From: Bremerella sp. TYQ1
GTDB taxonomy: Bacteria; Planctomycetota; Planctomycetia; Pirellulales; Pirellulaceae
NCBI RefSeq assembly: GCF_020150455.1
Contig: NZ_CP083740.1
Coordinates: forward strand, 4,836,001-4,900,000
Direction: 5' to 3'
Length of the DNA: 64,000 nt
Program-made: the position numbers and the translations under genes
Notes under the pieces: generated by a model
What the model was told of the DNA's origin: nothing
Databases searched by the model: none
Seen by the model: the letters and a program-made list of their open reading frames with translations, nothing else
Shown here: positions 50,549 to 63,599 of the stretch, piece after piece
Numbering within the stretch: position 1 is the first letter of the stretch
How the letters are laid out: each line of letters starts with the position of its first letter

Positions 50549-51121
50549 GTGTCCGACGATTCGCTCCTGATCCAGCGTATTCTTCAAGGGGATTCGTCCG
50601 CTTACGAAGAGATTGTGCGCTGTTATCAGCAGCGGCTCTATAACACGATGGTCCACATTCTCGGATCGAAGGAAGATGCCGAAGATGTCGTCCAGGAGTC
50701 GTTCGTTCAGGCCTACTTAAAGCTCGGCACGTTTCAGGGGAACAGTGCGTTTTATACCTGGCTGTATCGTATTTCGTTCAATATCGCGATAAGTCATCGT
50801 CGTCGACGCAAGAAGGTTCACTCGATCGATCAAGTTCGCGAGGAAGTTGGCAGCGAGCCAATCGACCGTAGCGAAGGGCCCGGCCATCGAATCGAACAAC
50901 AGGAAAGTATTCGTCAGGTTCACGAGGCACTCACGAAGCTTTCCGAAGAGCATCGCGATGTCCTGGTACTTCGCGAGTTAGAAGGAATGGACTACGACCG
51001 GATCGCGGAAGTGCTGGAGCTGCCTGTCGGAACCGTTCGCAGCCGATTGCATCGTGCTCGAAGTCACTTGAAGGAGTGCCTGGAAGTGATGATCGCTCAG
51101 TCCGAGCGTGGTATGCCGTAG
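50549..51121 (+). CDS. RpoE-type ECF sigma factor
   Basis: 190 residues; GTG at 50549. Region 2: GDSSAYEEIVRCYQQRLYN, KEDAEDVVQESFVQAYLKL and FYTWLYRISFNIAISHRRRRK. Region 4: LSEEHRDVLVLRELEGMDYDRIAEVLELPVGTVRSRLHRAR, a complete helix-turn-helix. A typical ECF sigma factor; no recognisable anti-sigma gene follows, since the next gene is convergent. The regulon is unknown. Confidence 0.92.
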   Translation: MSDDSLLIQRILQGDSSAYEEIVRCYQQRLYNTMVHILGSKEDAEDVVQESFVQAYLKLGTFQGNSAFYTWLYRISFNIAISHRRRRKKVHSIDQVREEVGSEPIDRSEGPGHRIEQQESIRQVHEALTKLSEEHRDVLVLRELEGMDYDRIAEVLELPVGTVRSRLHRARSHLKECLEVMIAQSERGMP

Positions 51122-53397: not shown

Positions 53398-54057
53398 CTA
53401 GTTTGTCCCCGCCGAATCTTCCGTAATCGAGAACTTCGGCAATGGCGAAGCTTCAGCCCCCGTCGGTATCAGGCGAATCTCACGAATCGCCAATTTTCCG
53501 ATCAATGGAAGTCCTACCATCTCGGCGGAAATCAGGTACGTTTCCGGGGCACCGAGCGGCAGTTCGCCGAGAGTTGTCGTCGCCACCGATTCCGGGTTAT
53601 CGCTCAGCAAGAGCAAGTCTTCCACGAAAAGCTTCTCCCCCACGTAAATCCGCATGCGGGCCTCTTGTGTAGGGCTGGTGCAAATCGCATCGACCTCGAT
53701 GCGGTAATTGCCTGCCGCGGTGATCTTCGCTCGCCAGATCGCCTGCTGGTCTCGATGTTGGAAGCCGGTGATTTGATCCCAATCGTCGAGCATTAGGCTC
53801 TCTCCGGAAAGCTGGGCGGTGAGGGGAGAGAGTTGGAGTGAACCGTTGGAATCTTGAAAGATGACAGGCGCCTGTTTTTCTGAGGTAGATGCCGAGTTGT
53901 CCGCTTGAGTTGCATGTGCGTCTGGGCCCTCAGGCTGGGCGTTGGTCGTTCGAATCGGCGAGGGCTGATGCGTCGTTGGTTCTGGGGCAGACCGTTGGCA
54001 GCCCCAAATCGGCAATGCCACGAGCAATGTTAGAAGAAAATTGAATTTGCACAAAGT
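53398..54057 (-). CDS. Putative lipoprotein, unknown function
   Basis: 219 residues from a TTG start at 54057 with a GGAAG site ~10 bases upstream; the longer frame would run into the divergent GspF gene and puts the signal peptide internally. The hydrophobic segment FNFLLTLLVALPIWGC ends in a lipobox cysteine. A Pro/Thr/Gln-rich linker leads to a beta-rich domain (WRAKITAAGNYRIEVDAICT, RIYVGEKLFVEDLLLL), possibly a carbohydrate-binding-like sandwich. It is divergent from the pseudopilus cluster and may serve it, which is inference. Confidence 0.6.
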   Translation of the reverse strand, partial: TLCKFNFLLTLLVALPIWGCQRSAPEPTTHQPSPIRTTNAQPEGPDAHATQADNSASTSEKQAPVIFQDSNGSLQLSPLTAQLSGESLMLDDWDQITGFQHRDQQAIWRAKITAAGNYRIEVDAICTSPTQEARMRIYVGEKLFVEDLLLLSDNPESVATTTLGELPLGAPETYLISAEMVGLPLIGKLAIREIRLIPTGAEASPLPKFSITEDSAGTN

Positions 54058-54140
54058 GTTGGTTTTCTTCCGTCGAGGGGGATTCGTTGTTAGAATAAGG
54101 AGCGGCGACTTTTCTATTCTTGCCCCTGGAAAGACTGTGT

Positions 54141-55196
54141 GTGGCTTCGACACGTCCATCATACCGTTTGGAAGATATTCTGGCTTTAAACGCCGAGATT
54201 ATTTCTTTATCGCGTGTCGAACTCCCTCTCGATCCGCATTTAGGGCGGATGAGCAAAGAGCTTTCCGGCCGCCTTCGCCAATTGGGTGAAGATCTGTCGA
54301 AGAGATTATCCAGCGGTCAGCCCCTGGACGAAGCGATCGATGAGTTGGGCAGCGGGTTTCCGCCCATGTATCGGGCCGTCGTAACTGCCGGACTGCGAAG
54401 TGGTCGGCTTACCTCTGCACTAGAAGATGTGGCCGCGACGGCTCGTCGTATTCAGAAAGTACGGATTTCGTACCTGACCGCTTCGGTTTATCCCGCGATT
54501 CTGCTGATTCTAGCGGGCCTGTTTGGAATGACCGTCGGCATGGAGCAGCTGCGAATGATGCGCGAGATCTGCGTCGATTCGTTCCTGCCAGAGACGTCCT
54601 ACATTGTTCGCTCGATTGATTTCTTCTCGGCGCTCAAGCCCCTGTTTATTGCGCTGATTCCTCTTGGGGGAGCGTTGTTGTTTTGTATCACCTTGTTGCA
54701 AGTGTGGCCGTCGTTTCTTTTTTTAGGAGACGGTTTCGTGGTTTGGCTACTTCCAGGCGCCAAGAAAGTGGCTCGTAACTGCCAGTGGGCGATGGTATTT
54801 GACCTGATGGGTTTGATGATTCGGCACGAGTGCCCATTGCCGGAAGCTGTTCGTTTGGCGACCGAAGCCACGGGAAGTCGCCGCATGATGCAGCTCGGAC
54901 GCGAATGGGCCGAACGGATTGAGAAGGGGGATATCAAGTCAGCGCCTGAGGAACTGAATCCGCTTAGTCGTTGGCTGTTAGGATCTCAGCAGGAACCGGA
55001 AGCGCTCGCGAATAGTCTTGCGTTGACAGGCCAGCGGTACTACGCGAAAGCTCGTCGCCAAAGCTTGTGGATCCAAAATCAGCTTCCTATTTATGCCACG
55101 TTGGTCATCGGTGGCTTCGTCGTCATTCTTTATGCCATGATGCTGTTCATTCCTTGGATCGGAATTATGCGGCACGTACTTGTTCTTCCCGCTTAG
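54141..55196 (+). CDS. Type II secretion/type IV pilus GspF-like membrane protein 1
   Basis: 351 residues from GTG 54141, with GGAAAG 8 bases upstream; TTG at 54120 is possible. Two T2SSF-type domains are visible. The first, ~20-155, includes RLSSGQPLDEAIDELGSGFPPMYRAVVTAGLRSGRL and the helix YLTASVYPAILLILAGLFG. The second, ~215-345, includes FDLMGLMIRHECPLPEAVRLATEATG and a final helix. GspF/PilC proteins form the inner-membrane platform that couples the ATPase to pilus assembly. It is the first of three consecutive relatives; no ATPase gene is adjacent. Confidence 0.82.
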   Translation: MASTRPSYRLEDILALNAEIISLSRVELPLDPHLGRMSKELSGRLRQLGEDLSKRLSSGQPLDEAIDELGSGFPPMYRAVVTAGLRSGRLTSALEDVAATARRIQKVRISYLTASVYPAILLILAGLFGMTVGMEQLRMMREICVDSFLPETSYIVRSIDFFSALKPLFIALIPLGGALLFCITLLQVWPSFLFLGDGFVVWLLPGAKKVARNCQWAMVFDLMGLMIRHECPLPEAVRLATEATGSRRMMQLGREWAERIEKGDIKSAPEELNPLSRWLLGSQQEPEALANSLALTGQRYYAKARRQSLWIQNQLPIYATLVIGGFVVILYAMMLFIPWIGIMRHVLVLPA

Positions 55197-55220
55197 TTGT
55201 TTTCCTTCCGCGTTTCGTTC

Positions 55221-56366
55221 ATGCCGTCACCTTCCGATTCCTCGAATCACGAACCTGATCGCTCGTCCCTCGGCGGCGCGTCGACGGTAGATGTTTCGAA
55301 AGACGAAGCGACGCCCAAGCCAGCATCACCGATCAAACTTAGTCATGCCGAGTCGTTAGAACTGCTGCGATATATCGGAGAACTTTCGAAAGCTGGCCTT
55401 CCGTTAGACGACGGGCTAGAGGCCTTTGCAGAGGAAATTTCTCATCGAAAGCTTCGGCAAACGCTACGGCAATTGGCCAAGGAAGTCCGTTCCGGGGGAA
55501 ACCCATTAGCGGAGCATGAACTGAGCTTCGTTCGATTGCCCAAGTATCACCAGTGCATCTTAATCGCGGGTATCAAGTCGCAGCGTTTGGGAGATACGCT
55601 GTTCGAGTTACTGGAAGAGGAGAACTGGCGAAGCGAATATTGGCGAGACTTGTGGGCGGCATTGTCGTATCCCATGCTATTGGCGACCGTCACGCTGTTG
55701 GTGGTTGATCTGTTGAACGTCTTTATCATGCCCATGATTCAGTCGCAATTCCTTTCGATTTACGAGGACTTCGAATTAGATCTGTCATTCGACCCTGCCA
55801 TTTTTCAGTCGCCAACGATCTCTTGGACCAGTTTCTTTTTGTTGGGCGTGGTAGGCATCTTTTTGATTCCTGCATTTCTGACGCCTGCGCAGACATCGAT
55901 GCTGCGAAGGAGCATGCCGCTGATTGGCAAGATCTTCTGGTGGTACGAATCGTTGGACTTGATTATCAAGCTGCGTCTTTTGGTTGCCCAGGGAATCGCC
56001 ACGCCGACTGCGCTGCGGTTGTTGGAAGGCGCCATCGCAAGCCGACGTTTTGCTCAGCTTGTGCCGCTATGGGCCGAGGAAATGGAGCGAGGTAAGAAGC
56101 TTACCGAAGTATGGCAAGACTCGCTCGATATTCCGACATCGATTTTGCCGCTCATTCGCTGGGGAGAAACGACCAGCCAACTGGATGACGCGTTAGGAAG
56201 CGCCGAGTTATTGTTGAAAGAGCGACTTGCATTACGGCGTGAGCTGATTCGTAAGATCGGACCGCCATTTATTACCATCATCGTTTTGGCGGCCCTATTC
56301 TGGGCTGCCGTTCGACTTGCCGTGTTGGTGTCGCCACTGATCGACCTTATTCAAGCGTTGACGTAA
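55221..56366 (+). CDS. GspF-like membrane protein 2
   Basis: 381 residues from ATG 55221, 24 bases after the first GspF-like gene; a TTG start at 55197 is less likely. A ~45-residue disordered N-terminus is followed by a T2SSF domain (LLRYIGELSKAGLPLDDGLEAFAEEI, FVRLPKYHQCILIAGIKSQRLGDTLFELLEEE), a helix (YPMLLATVTLLVVDLL), a second T2SSF domain (LRLLVAQGIATPTALRLLEGAI) and a C-terminal helix. It should be an inner-membrane platform component, distinct in sequence from its neighbours. Confidence 0.82.
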   Translation: MPSPSDSSNHEPDRSSLGGASTVDVSKDEATPKPASPIKLSHAESLELLRYIGELSKAGLPLDDGLEAFAEEISHRKLRQTLRQLAKEVRSGGNPLAEHELSFVRLPKYHQCILIAGIKSQRLGDTLFELLEEENWRSEYWRDLWAALSYPMLLATVTLLVVDLLNVFIMPMIQSQFLSIYEDFELDLSFDPAIFQSPTISWTSFFLLGVVGIFLIPAFLTPAQTSMLRRSMPLIGKIFWWYESLDLIIKLRLLVAQGIATPTALRLLEGAIASRRFAQLVPLWAEEMERGKKLTEVWQDSLDIPTSILPLIRWGETTSQLDDALGSAELLLKERLALRRELIRKIGPPFITIIVLAALFWAAVRLAVLVSPLIDLIQALT

Positions 56367-56371
56367 GACGT

Positions 56372-57649
56372 ATGGAATTGCTTTATCACCTACAGAACCT
56401 TTGGATGGCAGTCCTGCTTGGGATAGTGCTTCTGATCCTGGCGAATCAGTGGGATAGCACTACCCATGAAGGCTCTTCCTTTCTGCGACGCTCACTGCGT
56501 CTGGCAGCATGGATGTTCATCTGTATTGGTGGTTTGGGATGGTGGATCGGTGTTTCCGGTTTTGTCGCCGTCATTCTCGTTCCGGTAGTTAGCCTGGTGT
56601 TTTTCGGTTTCGGGCTTCAGCGATACCGGGTAATGGAAAACCGCAGTCTCGTTTCCATTGTTATGGCAGGCATGGAGAAAGGGATCTCGCCGATTTCTAG
56701 TGCCGTGGCATATCGTCAGGAAGCGGTTGGCATGCAGCAACGCAAGGCAGATCGTTTCGCCAAGGCGCTCGGCGCTGGTATGACGCTCGTCGAAGCGGCT
56801 CGTGTTGCGCGAGTATTTCTGCCTGCGGAAACGCTCATGACGTTGGAGCTCGGCCGCGCTTTGGGAAGTGTCGACGACATCAATCGGCATTCGAAGCAAT
56901 TTACTCGCGACGATACGACCAACTACGGTAACTTGGACTTGTTCCTTGGTGGTTTAATTACCGTGGTTTTGGTTGGCAGTTTTCAGCTGGCGTTGTTGTC
57001 ATTTACCGACCGCAAAATCAAACCGTACTTATATCAGATCATGGAAGAGTTCGATCTCAACGCGAGTGGGTTCCCCGCTTTGTGGAGATGGAGCGAGTGG
57101 TCGACGGAAATTATTTTATGGTGCCTGTATTTCATCATCCCAGTCGCCTCGCTGTTTTTCATTTTAATGGTGATAGTTCAATTTGGCTGGATGAGTGAAC
57201 TTCCGTGGCGACTACGCTGGGTTCATGGGCCGATCAATGAGTGTCGACTTTTAAATGTCCTGTCGGTCGTCGTTGCGGCTGAACTGCCCCTACAGAGTTC
57301 CTTGGAAGTCATTAAAGCGAAGTTTCCCTCCAGCAGAATTCGCAAAGTGGCACGCCATGTTTATTACCAGCAGCAACAAGGGGGCGATTGGATCGATGCG
57401 CTGCGCGCCGAGCGTATCTTGAACCGCGGAGAAGCCGCACTGGCCACCTCGGCTCAAAAAGCCGGCAACTTGGCTTGGGCGTTGAAGGAGATTTCCATCG
57501 GCAAACGCCGGCGTCATTTGCAGCGAATGGCTCCTGCAATGAAAATTGCATTGCCGGTTTTGGTCATTCTGGCCGCAATGCCAGTCTTGTTTGCCGCTAT
57601 CGGGGTTTTCCTGCCAATTATCAACCTGATTACTAATTTGTCGTTATAG
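56372..57649 (+). CDS. GspF-like membrane protein 3
   Basis: 425 residues; starts 5 bases after the previous stop. Unlike the other two, it begins with two or three membrane helices (~10-25, ~48-60 and ~62-85). T2SSF-like domains follow (MAGMEKGISPISSAVAYRQEAVG...; LSVVVAAELPLQSSLEVIKAKFPSSRI) and then a last helix (LPVLVILAAMPVLFAAIGVFLPII). Tight spacing with genes on both sides implies one operon. A more divergent platform protein; how the three share a role is unknown. Confidence 0.75.
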   Translation: MELLYHLQNLWMAVLLGIVLLILANQWDSTTHEGSSFLRRSLRLAAWMFICIGGLGWWIGVSGFVAVILVPVVSLVFFGFGLQRYRVMENRSLVSIVMAGMEKGISPISSAVAYRQEAVGMQQRKADRFAKALGAGMTLVEAARVARVFLPAETLMTLELGRALGSVDDINRHSKQFTRDDTTNYGNLDLFLGGLITVVLVGSFQLALLSFTDRKIKPYLYQIMEEFDLNASGFPALWRWSEWSTEIILWCLYFIIPVASLFFILMVIVQFGWMSELPWRLRWVHGPINECRLLNVLSVVVAAELPLQSSLEVIKAKFPSSRIRKVARHVYYQQQQGGDWIDALRAERILNRGEAALATSAQKAGNLAWALKEISIGKRRRHLQRMAPAMKIALPVLVILAAMPVLFAAIGVFLPIINLITNLSL

Positions 57650-57666
57650 CGTTTGTCGTTTTTGTA

Positions 57667-58089
57667 ATGATTCGTCCCGTCTCAAAACCTGGGCTTTCCG
57701 TAATCGAGTGCGTTGTTGCGCTCTCGGTGCTGGCCGTGATGTTGACGACATTGCTCTCAATTCACGTTGTCCAGTCGGCGCGTCTTGGTTTGGCAAAGCA
57801 CCAATTAACCGCCGAGCAAACGCTCAATAATCTTGCGCAGCGTATCCAATCGGCAGACGTCGATATCGTCACGCAGCAAGCGATCGGCCAATGGGCCGAC
57901 GCCCAAGAGAAAGAGTTGGAATTGCCACCGGAAACGCTTCATGCAGATGTGCAGATAATCACTGATCCAGCTTCGGGGGTTCGCATCGATTTGACGTGGA
58001 ATCCGAAGTCACCAAAGCTGCCTGAGTATTCGCTTACTGTCTGGCGATTCCAAGGGGCGATGGAAGAAACCGCGGAGGCCAGCCCATGA
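57667..58089 (+). CDS. Pseudopilin-like protein 1
   Basis: 140 residues. The N-terminal class III signal is KPGLSVIECVVALSVLAVML: Gly followed by a hydrophobic helix with Glu at position +5 after the cleavage point, as in type IV pilins and pseudopilins (GspI/PilV-like). The rest is a short globular domain with strands (HADVQIITDPASGVRIDLTW). It should be processed by a prepilin peptidase, whose gene is not in the window. The stop overlaps the next start (ATGA). Confidence 0.75.
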   Translation: MIRPVSKPGLSVIECVVALSVLAVMLTTLLSIHVVQSARLGLAKHQLTAEQTLNNLAQRIQSADVDIVTQQAIGQWADAQEKELELPPETLHADVQIITDPASGVRIDLTWNPKSPKLPEYSLTVWRFQGAMEETAEASP

Positions 58090-58553
58090 GCCGTTCTCGA
58101 CGATACGGGACAAGCTTGATAGAGACGCTAGTGATTATGGCTGTCGGAGGCGTCATTGCAACGTTGGCAATTAAGCTCGTCCACGAAAGCCAGATCCGGG
58201 CCCGCGAAGCTCAGCAAGCGTTAGACCTTCAGGTCGGCATTCGCAGGCTGGATGAACAGTTTCGTCGTGATGCACGCGAAGCAGAAAGCATTCAGATCCC
58301 CAGCGATGGTAGGCTGGAGTTGACGTTAGCCGATTCCATGGTCGTGTTTGCCGCCGAGAAAGGACTGATAACGCGAACCGAAACGGAACGCGATACGAAG
58401 AAAGTATCGCGAGAAGGATACGGCCTGGCAAATAGTCAGGTCACTTTCTCACAAACCGAAGATGGCAATGCTCGTGTTCTCGTAGTCGTCGGTAATCTGG
58501 AGTATTCCTCAGAGGATTACCTCATCGAGCAAGCGATCGGAGGGCAGCCATGA
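58086..58553 (+). CDS. Pseudopilin-like protein 2
   Basis: 155 residues. Pilin-type N-terminus YGTSLIETLVIMAVGGVIATLA, with Glu at +5 and cleavage after Gly. Mainly polar after the helix, with LDEQFRRDAREAESIQIPSDG, a pattern seen in GspJ-like minor pseudopilins. Four-base overlaps at both ends show translational coupling with the pseudopilin genes before and after. Confidence 0.75.
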   Translation: MSRSRRYGTSLIETLVIMAVGGVIATLAIKLVHESQIRAREAQQALDLQVGIRRLDEQFRRDAREAESIQIPSDGRLELTLADSMVVFAAEKGLITRTETERDTKKVSREGYGLANSQVTFSQTEDGNARVLVVVGNLEYSSEDYLIEQAIGGQP

Positions 58554-58963
58554 AACGGTGTGCCATAGATGATCGGAACGGCTTTGTCAGCGTACTGGTC
58601 CTTATCGCCATGGTTGCCGCGACGATGATCGCCATGGCTTCCCTGACGCACGTTGCACAGCAAACTCGACGCGAATCAGGCAAAGCGAGTGGTCCACAAA
58701 TCGATTTATTAAGCGAGGCGGCAATCGAGCTTGCCAAAATTCGATTGGCATCCGATGCCAATTACACTGGGGAGACGTGGGAGGCTGCTCTTTCCAGCAA
58801 CATGCAAAGCGGCTCGGCAACTGTTGTCGTTAAAGTATCTCCTGGCGAGGAAGCGAATCGCCGAGAGATTCAAGTAGACATCGAAGCAGGCGAGTCGGTC
58901 GGTCAGACCATACGTCAACAGCGAACAAAAACAATCACACTCCCTGAGTCGGAGGAAGAATAA
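58550..58963 (+). CDS. Minor pilin-like (GspK/PilX-like) protein
   Basis: 137 residues. After RNGFVSVLVLIAMVAATMIAM the helix lacks the +5 Glu, as is typical of GspK/PilX-type initiators. The remainder is helical and polar (IDLLSEAAIELAKIRLASD) with a strand region (SATVVVKVSPGEE). It is shorter than true GspK and lacks its large extra domain. It overlaps the preceding stop by 4 bases and the following start by 1 base. The assignment is tentative. Confidence 0.6.
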   Translation: MKRCAIDDRNGFVSVLVLIAMVAATMIAMASLTHVAQQTRRESGKASGPQIDLLSEAAIELAKIRLASDANYTGETWEAALSSNMQSGSATVVVKVSPGEEANRREIQVDIEAGESVGQTIRQQRTKTITLPESEEE

Positions 58964-60033
58964 TGAATTCGTGGAAACGCCGCGGTTTTACTTTGGTTGA
59001 GCTGTTGGTGGTGATTGCCATCATCGGCGTGCTCATCGCTTTGCTGCTTCCCGCCGTTCAGCAGGCACGAGAAGCTGCGAGGCGCATCTCATGCCAAAAT
59101 CACTTGGCCCAGTTGATTCTTGCGGTTCATAACTATGAGTCGGCGAATCAGTACTTTCCGGCCGGAACGATTAACGACACCGGGCCAATTCGAAACGCGC
59201 CCAAGGGTTATCACCAAAACTGGATCTCGGCGATCCTTCCTTACTTGGGTGACACCACCACCTACGAACATATCGATTTCAGCAAAGGCGTCTACGACAA
59301 AGCCCAGAACGGTCCGCGGAACTTAAGCTTGGAAGTCTTGGAATGTCCATCGAGTCCCGTAAGTCGCGCGAATAATCGAGTCGGAATCTCGCATTACAAC
59401 GGCATTCATAATCACTGCGAATTGCCTATCGACGAGTCGAATACTGGGGCGTTTATCTTGAACAAGCCCTTAGCGGCGAATCAGTTTACCGATGGGATTG
59501 CGTTTACGCTCTTTCTTTCAGAGTCCAATATTACGCCCTCCAGCAATCTAGGCTGGATGAGTGGAACCAGGGCGACACTACGCAATACGGGCACATCGCC
59601 CAATGGTGGTGCTGCAGTCGCATTGCCCAATGTTTATACCGACCCAGAATGGCTTTCGACGCTGGAAGTCACACCAAACGAAATGGATTTGCCGGTCGAT
59701 GATTTTGAGGAGGAACTGGAAGAAGTAGCCGAAGAGGGCGAAAAGCCGGCGGAAGCGAAAGACAACGCTCAACCGCAGCAGTTCACCGAAAAAGACTTTA
59801 TGGATTTTGAGGGTAAGAATTTGCCTCTGCCGACCCTGAAGCGAAGTGTATTTGGTGTGGTGCCTAACGATCCGACTTTGTTTGTGGGTGGTATTGGAAG
59901 TCACCATCCCGGCGGCGTAAATGTCGCTCGAGGTGATGGAAGCGTGCGATTTGTCTCGGAAACGATCGGGGCGGTGACATTTCGTCAACTCGGCCACCGT
60001 GCCGACGGTCAGCTTCGAGTCGGCGAGTACTAA
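58963..60033 (+). CDS. DUF1559 prepilin-type protein
   Basis: 356 residues. Canonical prepilin N-terminus RRGFTLVELLVVIAIIGVLI followed by ALLLPAVQQAREAARRISC, the DUF1559 hallmark. The C-terminal end HPGGVNVARGDGSVRFVSETI is also diagnostic. An acidic insert (~243-270, DDFEEELEEVAEEGEKPAE) interrupts the domain and is unusual. The family is abundant in planctomycetes; pilus- or pseudopilus-like assembly is presumed. It is the last pilin-like gene of this cluster and by size the likely major subunit. Confidence 0.9.
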   Translation: MNSWKRRGFTLVELLVVIAIIGVLIALLLPAVQQAREAARRISCQNHLAQLILAVHNYESANQYFPAGTINDTGPIRNAPKGYHQNWISAILPYLGDTTTYEHIDFSKGVYDKAQNGPRNLSLEVLECPSSPVSRANNRVGISHYNGIHNHCELPIDESNTGAFILNKPLAANQFTDGIAFTLFLSESNITPSSNLGWMSGTRATLRNTGTSPNGGAAVALPNVYTDPEWLSTLEVTPNEMDLPVDDFEEELEEVAEEGEKPAEAKDNAQPQQFTEKDFMDFEGKNLPLPTLKRSVFGVVPNDPTLFVGGIGSHHPGGVNVARGDGSVRFVSETIGAVTFRQLGHRADGQLRVGEY

Positions 60034-60045
60034 GAAAGATTGTTG

Positions 60046-60492
60046 ATGCTGCGGGGCCAGTCGTTTCCTCTGATATTTTTGATGCTGCTAGTCGCATTCT
60101 CGGCGATCCTGGCACGCATTGCGATGCCGATTGTTCAGTCGTTTCAAGCAAATGAAGTCTATGGCTCGGCCGTGGCGACCGAGCAATGGGTTTCCTGGAG
60201 TGCGGCGATGGTGATTACCGGCGCATTCGTCGGCTTGATCATCGGTTGGATTCGCGAGCGTTTTTGGCCTGGCGCGATTGTCGGGTTTATTCTGGGAAGT
60301 GTTATTGGTGCTGTTTGTACTCCTTTTCTCGCTGTACCTGCCGCGTTAACTGCTTTATGTGACTTGGCCTGGATCTTTATCACGTTGATTTTGCTTACGT
60401 TCGGGACGATACTGATTGAACGTCGTTACTGCAATCAAAGCCGTCGTGGTGAATATGTGAGAGTATTGCAGGAGAATTCGGACGAAGCGTGA
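60046..60492 (+). CDS. Membrane protein, unknown function
   Basis: 148 residues from ATG 60046 (AAGAAAG upstream). Four hydrophobic helices at ~6-27, ~46-66, ~72-95 and ~100-122. A charged C-terminus (QSRRGEYVRVLQENSDEA) is cytoplasmic. No family recognised. It starts 12 bases after the DUF1559 stop, so it probably belongs to the pilus-like operon. Confidence 0.65.
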   Translation: MLRGQSFPLIFLMLLVAFSAILARIAMPIVQSFQANEVYGSAVATEQWVSWSAAMVITGAFVGLIIGWIRERFWPGAIVGFILGSVIGAVCTPFLAVPAALTALCDLAWIFITLILLTFGTILIERRYCNQSRRGEYVRVLQENSDEA

Positions 60493-60534
60493 TGATCGCT
60501 TGGCGGCTTGAAAGCATTTGAAAGAGGACATGTA

Positions 60535-60978
60535 ATGGTCAGCAATATCAGTCGAGTTCTGTTGGTCGAGGATAACCCGGCCCACGCGAAGCTGATGATG
60601 CGGACGCTTAACGAGTTTGGTGAGTCGCTGGATATCGAACATGTGAGCGATGGTGAAGCCGCGCTCGCCTATCTGTTCCGCAAGGGAAAGTACGAGAACC
60701 GCCGATCGCAGCCACACTTGGTGCTTCTCGATCTGCGAATTCCGAAATTCGACGGTTTAACGGTTTTAGGTCGGATAAAAGAAGATCCCGAGCTAAAGCA
60801 CATCCCCGTTGTTATTCTCACGACGTCCGATGCAGACTCGGATGTTCGCGGCGCCACCGATCGATTTGCTAACAGTTATCTCGTCAAGCCAATCGAGTAC
60901 CTGCAATTCGTGAATCTTATGCGGTCGGTAGGCGAGTATTGGACCGAGATGAATCAGTCTCCGGGGTCGAAGTCATAG
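60535..60978 (+). CDS. Single-domain response regulator (Rcp1-like)
   Basis: 147 residues from ATG 60535 (AAAGAGGA site). Receiver only: VLLVEDNP, phospho-acceptor Asp66 in LVLLDLRIPKFDG, TTSDADSD and YLVKPIEY. The longer loop GKYENRRSQPH before the Asp strand is typical of Rcp1-like regulators partnered with bacteriophytochrome or PAS kinases. Likely partner: the histidine kinase 64 bases downstream. Confidence 0.88.
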   Translation: MVSNISRVLLVEDNPAHAKLMMRTLNEFGESLDIEHVSDGEAALAYLFRKGKYENRRSQPHLVLLDLRIPKFDGLTVLGRIKEDPELKHIPVVILTTSDADSDVRGATDRFANSYLVKPIEYLQFVNLMRSVGEYWTEMNQSPGSKS

Positions 60979-61042
60979 CACAGATACCTGCGAAACCTGG
61001 CAGGCTCGAAGAGCACGCTTATTCTTCATAGATGGGGCACGA

Positions 61043-62968
61043 ATGGGAACCAAGCTGCGTTTGATGATTGTCGAAGACGATCCCGCTCACGCGCGGCTGA
61101 TTGTGCGCGGCTTTCGAACGGAAGTAGACGACTTCGAGCTGACGACCCATTTCTCGTTGAAAGATGCCAGGGCCGCAATCGCGGAATCGGTGCCAGACCT
61201 GGTGATCGTCGATCTATCGCTTCCTGACGGCTTTGGGGCTGACCTGATCGAACCACAGGGCAAAGAAGCACGTTACCCGGTGATGATCATCACCAGCCAG
61301 GGTGACGAAAAAACTGCCGTCGACGTTCTGAAGCGTGGCGCGATCGACTACGTTGTCAAATCAGAATCGGGCTTCTTTGAACTGCCACGTTTGGCGCGTC
61401 GATCGATTCGAGAATGGAATCTACAGCGAGAAAAAGTTGAAGCGGAAGAAGCTTTACGAAATAGCGAGCAGCGCTACCGTGCGTTGATCGACCACTCGCC
61501 CACGTCGATTGTCGTTGCCTGTGAAGGAAAGATTGTCCTAGCCAATAGCATGGCACAGAAGTGCCTGGGGGCGAACTCGACTTCGGAAGTCGTCGGCAAA
61601 ACGATCCAGGCTTTTCAAATTCCTGATGTCGAAGCTCTCGATAAATCGCACGAATCCAGCCCGACCGATCGGAAGCCTGGACAATTGAATGAATATGTCC
61701 TGCGGCAAGTCGATGGGACGCTGCTGGATGTCGAGTTGATGACGACGTCGGTCGATTACTACGGCCAAGAGGCAACGCAGTACGTTTTTCAAGATATTAC
61801 GCTGCGGAAAGAAGCGGAGACGGAGATGCGGATTCGCGACCGCGCGATCGCCTCGGCCAGTGATGGGATTTTTATCGTCCAGCTTTCTAACGAAGAGATG
61901 AAAATCGTCGACTGTAATCAAGCCTTCTTGGAGATCGTCGGCTGCCAACGCGACGCTGTTCGTCAGCAAGGGGTCAACGTCATCCGATGCGATTCACGTT
62001 ACGAGGCTCGGTTTCGGTTAATCGTCGCTGGCATTCATTCAAGGCAACCGGCACGCGATACGATTCGGATTTACACCGAGGGGGAAGCCTATCGCTGGGT
62101 CGAGATCTCGATTTCTCCTGTGCATGTTTCGGAAAGTCTTAGCACGCACGTTGTCGGCGTTGTGCATGATATTACCGAGAAGGTAAACGCCGAAGAGGAA
62201 ATCCGCCGCCGAAATGCTGAGCTTGCTCACTTTCTGCGTCTGACGGCCATGGGCGAACTTGTCGCCGGTTTGGCACACGAGGTGAATCAGCCGCTATATG
62301 CGATTTCTAACTATGCAGGTACATGCGAAAACCTGCTGAAGGCTGCCGATGAGATCGACAAGCCTAGCGTTCAGCAATGTGTGACACGGATCGGGCAGCA
62401 AGCACGTCGGGCCGCCGAAATCATTCGCCGCTTGAGAAATTACGTGAGCCGCACGGCTCCTAAAGTCGAGGCCTCCGAGATCAGAGACCTCTTAAGTGAC
62501 TCGGTGGCATTGCTGACGCCGCTGATGGAAGAGCAGGCCATCGAAGTCACGATGGACATAGAACCTTCGACTCCGAGTGTTTTTGTCGATAAAATTCAAA
62601 TAGAACAAGTGCTGATCAATTTGATCAGCAACGCGACAGATGCGATAGACGATACCAATTCGCAACGCGTTATCGAGATTCGAGCTTCCCTGGTTGAAAC
62701 CAAGGAAGAGCCAATGGTGCAAATCTCGGTAAGAGACTTTGGGATTGGGATTCCCCCAAATTTCGATGTCTTCGAGGCATTTCAGTCGACGAAGGAATCG
62801 GGTATGGGAATGGGACTTTCCATCAGTCGAACGATTATCGAATCGCACGGAGGGAAGATCTGGGTTGAACCAGCTTCTCCGCACGGTACGATCTTTTTCT
62901 TTACGCTACCTACCTCCATCCAACAGGTTACAGGCCATGCCGACGAATCCGACCGTGTTTGTCATTGA
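61043..62968 (+). CDS. REC-PAS-PAS sensor histidine kinase
   Basis: 641 residues, soluble. N-terminal receiver (~5-125) with LMIVEDDP, Asp57 and Lys106. PAS domains at ~142-255 and ~267-380. HisKA with phospho-accepting His412 in AHEVNQPL, then an ATPase domain with NLISNATDAID, DFGIGI and GMGMGLSISRTIIESHGG. It is FixL/DctB-like in its kinase core. Since the receiver leads the protein, it can be controlled by another kinase. It overlaps the next gene by 32 bases. No heme- or flavin-binding residue of PAS was identified. Confidence 0.92.
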   Translation: MGTKLRLMIVEDDPAHARLIVRGFRTEVDDFELTTHFSLKDARAAIAESVPDLVIVDLSLPDGFGADLIEPQGKEARYPVMIITSQGDEKTAVDVLKRGAIDYVVKSESGFFELPRLARRSIREWNLQREKVEAEEALRNSEQRYRALIDHSPTSIVVACEGKIVLANSMAQKCLGANSTSEVVGKTIQAFQIPDVEALDKSHESSPTDRKPGQLNEYVLRQVDGTLLDVELMTTSVDYYGQEATQYVFQDITLRKEAETEMRIRDRAIASASDGIFIVQLSNEEMKIVDCNQAFLEIVGCQRDAVRQQGVNVIRCDSRYEARFRLIVAGIHSRQPARDTIRIYTEGEAYRWVEISISPVHVSESLSTHVVGVVHDITEKVNAEEEIRRRNAELAHFLRLTAMGELVAGLAHEVNQPLYAISNYAGTCENLLKAADEIDKPSVQQCVTRIGQQARRAAEIIRRLRNYVSRTAPKVEASEIRDLLSDSVALLTPLMEEQAIEVTMDIEPSTPSVFVDKIQIEQVLINLISNATDAIDDTNSQRVIEIRASLVETKEEPMVQISVRDFGIGIPPNFDVFEAFQSTKESGMGMGLSISRTIIESHGGKIWVEPASPHGTIFFFTLPTSIQQVTGHADESDRVCH

Positions 62969-63599
62969 CGACGACCCAGCGGCACGGGAATCGATTGGAA
63001 TGCTCATCCGTTCGCTCGGGCTTCAAGTTGAGACCTTTGCTTCGGCTGAACAATACTTGCAATCGTTCGAGGCAAGCCGTCCCGGTTGTGTCGTCACCGA
63101 TATGCGGATGCTTGGATTGAGCGGTCTTGAACTTCAAGAGCAGCTCGTCGAGATGGGAGAACGTATTCCCGTGATCCTGATTTCCGCCCACGCGAATATG
63201 CAAATCGCAGTGAAGGCCATGCGGAACGGGGCGATTACGTTTCTGGAAAAGCCCTGCCAACAGCAAGAGATTATCGATGCGGTAAACGAGGCGATCGCCT
63301 TGGATGCACGTTGGCGGCAAGAGGCTCAGGAATCGGCCGAAGCACGCGAGAACTATGAAAAGCTTAACGCCGGCGAGCGAGACGTGATGAAGCTTATGAT
63401 GATTGGTAAAGCCAACAAGGTGATCGCCAATCGTCTGGATGTGAGTCTGCGGACCGTGGAGGCTCGACGGCACAATGTCTTCAAGAAGATGGGAGTGGAT
63501 AACATTCCCGACCTGACACGCTTGGCGATGAAGATTGAAGAACTGCGTACCGAGATCGAATCGATTCCCGATTCCACCGACGAGCAGGAAGAAGAATAG
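62937..63599 (+). CDS. FixJ-type response regulator
   Basis: 220 residues from ATG 62937; a longer frame inside the kinase gene is not supported. Receiver with VFVIDDDP, Asp55 in CVVTDMRMLGLSG, LISAHAN and FLEKPC. LuxR-type DNA-binding domain: LNAGERDVMKLMMIGKANKVIANRLDVSLRTVEARRHNVFKKM. The close match to FixJ/TodT/NodW order and the 32-base overlap with the kinase gene argue for a cognate pair. Target genes unknown; the adjacent pilus cluster is a candidate. Confidence 0.92.
   Translation: MPTNPTVFVIDDDPAARESIGMLIRSLGLQVETFASAEQYLQSFEASRPGCVVTDMRMLGLSGLELQEQLVEMGERIPVILISAHANMQIAVKAMRNGAITFLEKPCQQQEIIDAVNEAIALDARWRQEAQESAEARENYEKLNAGERDVMKLMMIGKANKVIANRLDVSLRTVEARRHNVFKKMGVDNIPDLTRLAMKIEELRTEIESIPDSTDEQEEE

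Follow-up and report, generated by a model that had tools for sequence, protein, structure and literature searches.

The window analysed here, 64,000 nucleotides of the planctomycete Bremerella sp. TYQ1 (Pirellulaceae; positions 4,836,001-4,900,000 of contig NZ_CP083740.1, a 6.66 Mb one-contig genome), carries a compact plus-strand run of eight genes at 54120-60492, in the order F1-F2-F3-I1-I2-K-DUF1559-M150. F1, F2 and F3 encode GspF-family platform proteins, followed by three minor prepilin-like proteins, a DUF1559 prepilin and a small membrane protein. We place the run inside the type IV filament superfamily, as a variant apart from the type II secretion, Com and Tad systems. With slightly better than even confidence, we read it from its genes as a minimal type IV filament machine resembling Com, in which a heteromeric platform of three paralogs would assemble a DUF1559 pilus or pseudopilus, with an ATPase encoded far from the cluster as its motor.

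Results

A previous inspection of these letters by a model, hereafter the sequence-only reading, had pointed out the eight-gene run with its three GspF-like genes and tight joins. Every gene lies where that reading had placed it, with successive spacings of 0, 5, 17, -4, -4, -1 and 6 bases, and all three F proteins exceed the Pfam T2SSF cut-off. The gene-neighbourhood survey that it had proposed also bore it out. A search of relatives recovered the cluster together with the same flanks in 8/8 other genomes of the genus, F1-F3 being 62-87% identical within the genus. Among 41 fetched loci besides the window that carry F1, F2 and F3, 40 have them in the order F1-F2-F3 and in the 41st (L055) F2 and F3 are fused. 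The run from F1 to DUF1559 is complete in 32/41 loci, L055 included; in the remaining nine a gene is unlabelled or the locus stops short (L048, L049, L054, L087, L088, L098, L195, L198 and L199). Labels were assigned with profiles built from genus and distant loci, and partial or two-platform loci (L059, L093, L103, L104, L207 and L244) were left out. Selection of the 41 loci was not random but guided by resemblance to F3 or the ATPase: they include 25 found via an F3 search, 7 with the ATPase as bait and 4 chosen from ATPase plus F3 hits; eight are of one genus, and L047 and L090 are near-copies. Since the cluster is present in all eight genus genomes and its order recurs across distant Planctomycetia, the arrangement is beyond chance. 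The F trees described below and the conserved order likewise contradict the possibility, which the sequence-only reading had allowed for, that the three GspF-like genes are recent unrelated insertions. In G408, ATPase-F1-F2 (L206) and an F3-type gene (L207) lie at two distant sites.

F1 and F2 each contain two T2SSF domains by Pfam, and F3 contains two by profile comparison: the hhalign profile-profile alignment of F1 with F3 extends over 322 columns and both cytoplasmic domains (E 3.5e-24), starting at F3 residue 96. The N-terminus of F3 is an additional hydrophobic stretch of ~95 residues, which would form three membrane helices. F3 has close homologs under the names Bremerella and Blastopirellula. 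F1, F2 and F3 score 52.7, 85.8 and 36.3 bits with the GspF equivalog model (cut-off 424) and 38.5, 57.7 and 21.7 bits with that of ComGB (cut-off 240), and they lie well under all GspF, PilC and ComGB cut-offs. In a tree of 116 platform proteins (support as SH-aLRT, the Shimodaira-Hasegawa-like approximate likelihood ratio test), the relatives of F1 form a single group (98), those of F2 a main group (98) with four divergent rows standing apart (99), and those of F3 a group of their own (81), which is joined with the second F of two-F loci (97). Three Phycisphaerae loci carry two platforms, and their first platform, together with that of L104, makes up a separate group (99). The simplest reading would be a two-platform ancestor (compare L104, L125, L129 and L130) whose first platform later split to give F1 and F2.

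The fused gene of L055 is a single frame of 861 codons in G037. A database search with this fusion gave 13 proteins of 803-820 residues at 95% query cover and 34-100% identity. In aligning the fusion, single F2 rows that MAFFT had set against its F3 half were dropped. The existence of 13 diverged proteins of this form means that the fusion is no assembly slip, and that a fixed 1:1 ratio is tolerated by F2 and F3. It is likely, as judged from these sequences, that the platform is heteromeric, and a 1:1:1 trimer of F1, F2 and F3 would be our best single guess.

The residues that would line a platform channel also set these proteins apart. The PulF homotrimer is backed by modelling and cross-linking, and its proposed central channel is narrowed at Y168 in transmembrane segment (TMS) 1 and E370 in TMS3, each adjoining a proline (PMC10790770). 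In one joint alignment, where eight rows of each F set are from a single genus, the TMS3 Glu-Pro was found in 40/45 reference platforms, four of the five exceptions being of a lone type, F4, that is taken up below. It was seen in 0/42 F1, 5/42 F2 (L088, L097, L196, L200 and L204) and 1/41 F3 rows (L196), and in none of 11 two-platform proteins. The TMS1 Tyr-Pro or Trp-Pro is present in 45/45 reference platforms, 38/42 F1 and 37/42 F2 rows, and in a single F3 row of 41, as Tyr-Pro. If the PulF channel model is right, the acidic ring would be absent from most such machines.

The sequence-only reading had described the cluster as having no ATPase and had proposed, as one possibility, that its motor was borrowed from elsewhere in the genome. 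Locally the first statement holds: as that reading had said of GspE, GspD and the peptidase, this genome shows no match for T2SSE, a secretin or an A24 peptidase less than 0.8 Mb from the cluster. It fails for the genome as a whole, which encodes an ATPase of 402 residues, an ortholog of those linked to the cluster in relatives, at 3,994,403-3,995,612 (T2SSE, 291.8 bits), 895 kb from the cluster, and for the operons of relatives. Of the 25 loci found via F3, 8 belong to the same genus and none of these has a linked ATPase; the other 17 come from other genera, and in 9/17 an ATPase gene of ~400 codons precedes F1 (with one gene between in L057); two of the eight other-genus loci without it (L049 and L053) end near F1. 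Over all 41 loci the ATPase precedes F1 in 20, the 11 extra cases coming from ATPase-biased picks (L086 has three genes between). In the genus, the ATPase gene is adjoined by a UppP-motif gene in 9/9 genomes, here a BacA by Pfam, 28 bases off.

Against the nine linked ATPases the distant one shows 45-53% identity, compared with at most 41% against other GspE-type rows. In a tree of 95 ATPases, made by a short search and with mostly weak inner forks, one clade of 53 rows (SH-aLRT 100) comprises 9 of this genus, all 20 linked ATPases that the tree included (which overlap with, and are not equal to, the 20 linked loci) and 24 others. All its named rows are planctomycetes, and those canonical ATPases of the same genomes that the tree included fall outside it. 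Among 40 relatives, 21 have an ATPase match of 551-664 bits, the next best being 395. Counted by genus, a member of the clade was found in 14/18 genera with the cluster against 1/14 without a found cluster (Fisher p 8e-5), or in 12/18 cluster genera at a cut of 550 bits (p 9e-4); the genera are not independent, and the 14 may hide divergent copies. An F3 cut-off of 160 bits, applied across the phylum, does not catch the divergent copy of G206 (L246).

Since the ATPase is linked in 9/17 other-genus loci found via F3 and this genome has its own ortholog at 45-53% identity, a dedicated, relocated motor appears likelier than a borrowed one. We infer that the distant ATPase drives F1-F3 and has moved away, rather than that the linked state is derived. 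The broader proposal of the sequence-only reading is thus supported in part: a planctomycete machine for filament assembly or secretion, with multiple platform proteins and conserved as a unit beside which no secretin was found, stands, whereas a borrowed motor is the less likely reading. Residues 14-392 of the ATPase align to positions 102-485 of the 486 in the GspE model, and no N1 domain was detected; it scores 345.7 bits with GspE and 202.5 bits with ComGA (cut-off 300), both below cut-off. Two other observations on ATPase genes were made: a divergent T2SSE-domain gene (L204:1567-2907, 154.6 bits) lies ~1.7 kb upstream of an F1-F2-F3 run without the usual ATPase, and two adjacent unusual T2SSE matches occur at 3,904,197-3,906,724 of G000.

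The profile searches recommended by the sequence-only reading succeeded for T2SSF in F1-F3 and for the family and leader of the DUF1559 protein, and fell short for the remaining genes. I1, I2 and K have prepilin-type leaders, with family hits below threshold and N_methyl below cut-off. The leader has Glu5 in 29/36 scored homologs of I1, 25/38 of I2 and 42/48 of the DUF1559 protein, and in 0/36 of K, five of which are without a recognised leader. GspK is expected to lack Glu5. The DUF1559 protein is probably the main subunit. DUF1559 genes are numerous in this genome, with at least 47 matches (47/47 scored of 189 candidates), and first-look candidates have a median of 51 in the 18 cluster genera versus 21.5 in the 14 without (p 1.6e-4; per Mb, p 0.007). 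A link between the cluster and DUF1559 abundance is thus weakly supported.

A profile of six secretins from this genome found no match in 41/41 three-F loci (stretches of 4.5-21 kb, 657 kb in total). The expectation that an ordinary system would show GspE and GspD in the operons of relatives was therefore realised for a GspE-type ATPase and not for the secretin. The genome has seven secretin matches, none less than 0.8 Mb from the cluster, and four A24 peptidase matches over cut-off, none in or near the operon. No GspL/GspM-type gene was found among the few neighbours scanned with Pfam, a scan that included no GspL/M profile search. Elsewhere in G000, a secretin match in a frame of 1426 codons at 6,035,516 has neither a T2SSE nor a T2SSF match closer than 0.3 Mb.

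Gene layout and flanking genes

The eight genes are listed in Table 1. F1 may start at 54120 (TTG, the mechanical call) or at 54141 (GTG, the choice of the sequence-only reading), either being possible.

Table 1. Genes of the three-platform cluster, with positions in the window.
Gene	Product	Position	Strand	Evidence
F1	GspF-family platform protein, 358 aa	54120..55196	+	Pfam T2SSF 82 bits, two stretches
F2	GspF-family platform protein, 389 aa	55197..56366	+	Pfam T2SSF 85 bits, two stretches
F3	Divergent GspF-family platform protein, 425 aa	56372..57649	+	Pfam T2SSF 36 bits, C-terminal domain only
I1	Minor prepilin-like (GspI/ComGE-like)	57667..58089	+	NCBIfam ComGE 2.3e-4, below cut-off
I2	Minor prepilin-like	58086..58553	+	N_methyl 0.0034, below cut-off
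K	GspK/PilX-like minor prepilin	58550..58963	+	NCBIfam GspK 2.4e-4, below cut-off
DUF1559	DUF1559 prepilin, H-X9-DG motif	58963..60033	+	Pfam PF07596 157 bits; N_methyl and TIGR04294 both over cut-off
M150	Small membrane protein	60040..60492	+	Present in 8/8 other Bremerella-type genomes

M150 matched no family over cut-off in a Pfam scan and was labelled next to the clusters of L047, L051, L063 and L090; it is possibly an accessory part of the machine. Upstream, a divergent small gene at window 53398-54162 overlaps the mechanical start of F1 and is present in 7/8 other genus loci; no Pfam or NCBIfam family matched it. Directly downstream, at window 60508-63599, lie a response regulator, a sensor kinase and a second regulator, in an order kept in 8/8 other genus genomes. 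These three genes were considered as part of the system and rejected: constant as they are within the genus, they are unlabelled beside distant clusters.

In six loci (L060, L062, L065, L099, L196 and L198) a distinct gene for an extracytoplasmic function (ECF) sigma factor stands upstream of the ATPase or F1, at 234-331 bits, which suggests regulated expression. A gene for 132-170 residues, perhaps an anti-sigma factor, follows it in the five of these loci that were looked at. No such regulator could be assigned in this genome, where the best matches, at 60, 58 and 53 bits against 234-331 in the relatives, are like those of other ECF factors. The first and third best profile matches are the ECF genes at window 50549-51121, ~3 kb upstream of F1, and at L080:2756-3322, ~4 kb upstream of the distant ATPase.

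Discussion

A minimal type IV filament set has been described as pilins, a peptidase, an extension ATPase and a platform, the platform trimer being modelled as a three-jawed chuck (PMC10191384). In the machine that we propose, the parts would be the short ATPase, the platform, the I/J/K-like minor prepilins and DUF1559 as the main prepilin. The platform, elsewhere a homo-oligomer, would here consist of three diverged paralogs, likely with one F1, one F2 and one F3 around the pilin, and the three jaws of the chuck would be three proteins. The ATPase, presumably a hexamer without the N-terminal part of GspE and, in this genus, encoded next to uppP and distant from the cluster, would turn or push the six cytoplasmic domains of the platform. 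The platform would then raise processed pilins from the inner membrane, adding them to a short DUF1559 filament with K, I1 and I2 at its tip; the prepilin peptidase would be supplied from elsewhere in the genome. A short DUF1559 fibre is our working hypothesis, and where such a fibre ends is something that we infer. We would go further only tentatively, and with somewhat less than even confidence, to a phylum-specific class of machine with an obligate F1-F2-F3 heterotrimer, derived from the two-platform state still found in Phycisphaerae, that has mostly shed the TMS3 glutamate and works as an ATP-only asymmetric chuck assembling DUF1559 pilins.

Several observations weigh against the heteromeric machine with a distant motor. 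The platform tree splits F2 and has a weak backbone (29), which makes any order of duplications drawn from it tentative. The channel glutamate is kept in the five F2 rows and the one F3 row noted above, all Planctomycetaceae-side, and its loss is not universal. The link to DUF1559 abundance is not significant inside the home family (p 0.12 for candidates, 0.07 for matches), and G011 and G017 are rich in DUF1559 genes without a found cluster. Four genomes (G014, G018, G019 and G024) have the cluster while no ATPase of the subfamily was found in them, and G016 and G021 have only a divergent one (L185, on a long branch). This means that some platforms are driven by a different motor or that the ATPase escaped the search; three of these genomes, G014, G018 and G021, are part of a divergent group of clusters that includes L060. 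The ATPase, moreover, adjoins a different single platform gene, F4, in L094, L136 and L183, where F4 is directly upstream, and this genome has F4 as well.

The results may also be compatible with three separate homo-oligomers, F1, F2 and F3 each forming its own platform for different states or substrates and sharing one common ATPase. Each protein has both cytoplasmic domains and could oligomerise alone, and F3 is the most different of the three, given its N-terminal extension and a TMS1 proline that is found as Tyr-Pro in only 1/41 rows. We consider this rather unlikely, because the three genes are held in a fixed order (except that F3 lies away from F1 and F2 in the genome of L207), the F2-F3 fusion persists across diverged proteins, and a single ATPase gene stands alongside F1-F3 where it is linked.

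It is less probable still that in this genus the distant ATPase serves F4, with F1-F3 driven by the PilB or GspE of another system, as the pairing in L094, L136 and L183, the occurrence of F4 here and the four cluster genomes without such an ATPase might suggest. A match to F4 of at least 249 bits is present in 20/20 genomes searched, including G009, G014 and G019, which are without that ATPase. In the ATPase tree the rows of the genus side with the cluster-linked L057 (weakly, SH-aLRT 87) rather than with those paired with F4, and the position of the ATPase before F1 in 9/17 other-genus loci argues in the same direction. Furthermore, F1-F3 are conserved within the genus at the identities given above and are therefore not decaying. 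F4 itself is a lone GspF-family gene at 6,518,699-6,519,745 of G000 (L071:6601-7758), flanked by prephenate dehydrogenase/purL-type genes on one side and an SPFH gene on the other. In G031 the ATPase lies beside an F4-type gene and the cluster was not found.

A type II secretion system or type IV pilus of the ordinary kind, taking its secretin and its GspL/M or PilMNO from other loci, is the least probable account, for although secretin and A24 peptidase matches exist elsewhere in the genome, none of the 41 three-F loci has a secretin, the ATPase is without the first ~100 GspE positions, F1-F3 score well under the GspF, PilC and ComGB cut-offs, and the ATPase clade leaves out those canonical ATPases of the same genomes that the tree included.

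A heteromeric platform driven by its own ATPase would bear on the subunit number, symmetry and ion conduction of type IV filament machines, which are debated. If the positions in the platform are distinct proteins, mostly without the channel glutamate, each could be mutated, tagged and counted separately, and the system may offer a direct test of how such machines are built. The two- and three-platform states in one phylum would represent an evolutionary series from homomer to heteromer. A copy of the system (L195) is present in the presumed Planctopirus limnophila, a genetically tractable planctomycete.

Relation to known systems

The cluster has the marks of the type IV filament superfamily: a T2SSF platform, a PilB/GspE-type ATPase presumed to drive it, a class III leader in the DUF1559 protein and an A24 peptidase in the genome. 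Several full-length platform paralogs in one operon were found in no title or abstract among the papers listed in searches of the open-licence PubMed Central literature, and 'planctomyc' is absent from the main text of a survey of type IV filaments (PMC6668835). In that survey, platform pairs are named for Tad and some archaeal systems and are explained by fission.

The Com pilus of monoderm bacteria (ComGA-ComGG) is similar in having a short ATPase, a platform, main and minor pilins, and neither a secretin nor an MNOP complex (PMC10191384). It differs in having one ComGB platform instead of three, and the system described here has a DUF1559 main subunit and a diderm host, and neither ComGB nor ComGA at equivalog level. 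Com serves DNA uptake, whereas the present system is known from genes alone. The type II secretion system shares with it a GspE-like ATPase, GspF domains and I/J/K-like prepilins, with a K that lacks Glu5. Unlike that system, for which a PulF homotrimer is proposed (PMC10790770), the cluster has three platform paralogs that have mostly lost the TMS3 Glu-Pro. Its loci contain no secretin, GspF equivalog or GspE N1 domain; a distant secretin could be used.

Planctomycetes also have an operon of the type E-PilT-E-F, in which prepilin-like genes of planctomycete type come after the type IV filament genes. It is a separate locus (L194) with one canonical F and longer ATPases, the present system of the same genome being L195. 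The Plim_0410-0401 genes of Planctopirus limnophila, four type II secretion genes followed by six planctomycete genes (PMC10632474), had been a candidate for our system; this was rejected, as L194, at ~0.51 Mb of G359, is a canonical E-PilT-E-F operon. Here L194 is taken as Plim_0410-0401 by position and gene order, and G359 as Planctopirus limnophila. Those genes are shown with transposon sites in that paper, which presents the species as a planctomycete with transposon genetics.

The Tad pilus (TadB/TadC, CpaG/CpaH) resembles the cluster in having more than one platform gene, and a heteromeric platform has been proposed for it (PMC12019362). TadB and TadC have one T2SSF domain each and arose by gene fission according to PMC6668835, whereas the loci described here encode two or three paralogs of two domains each.

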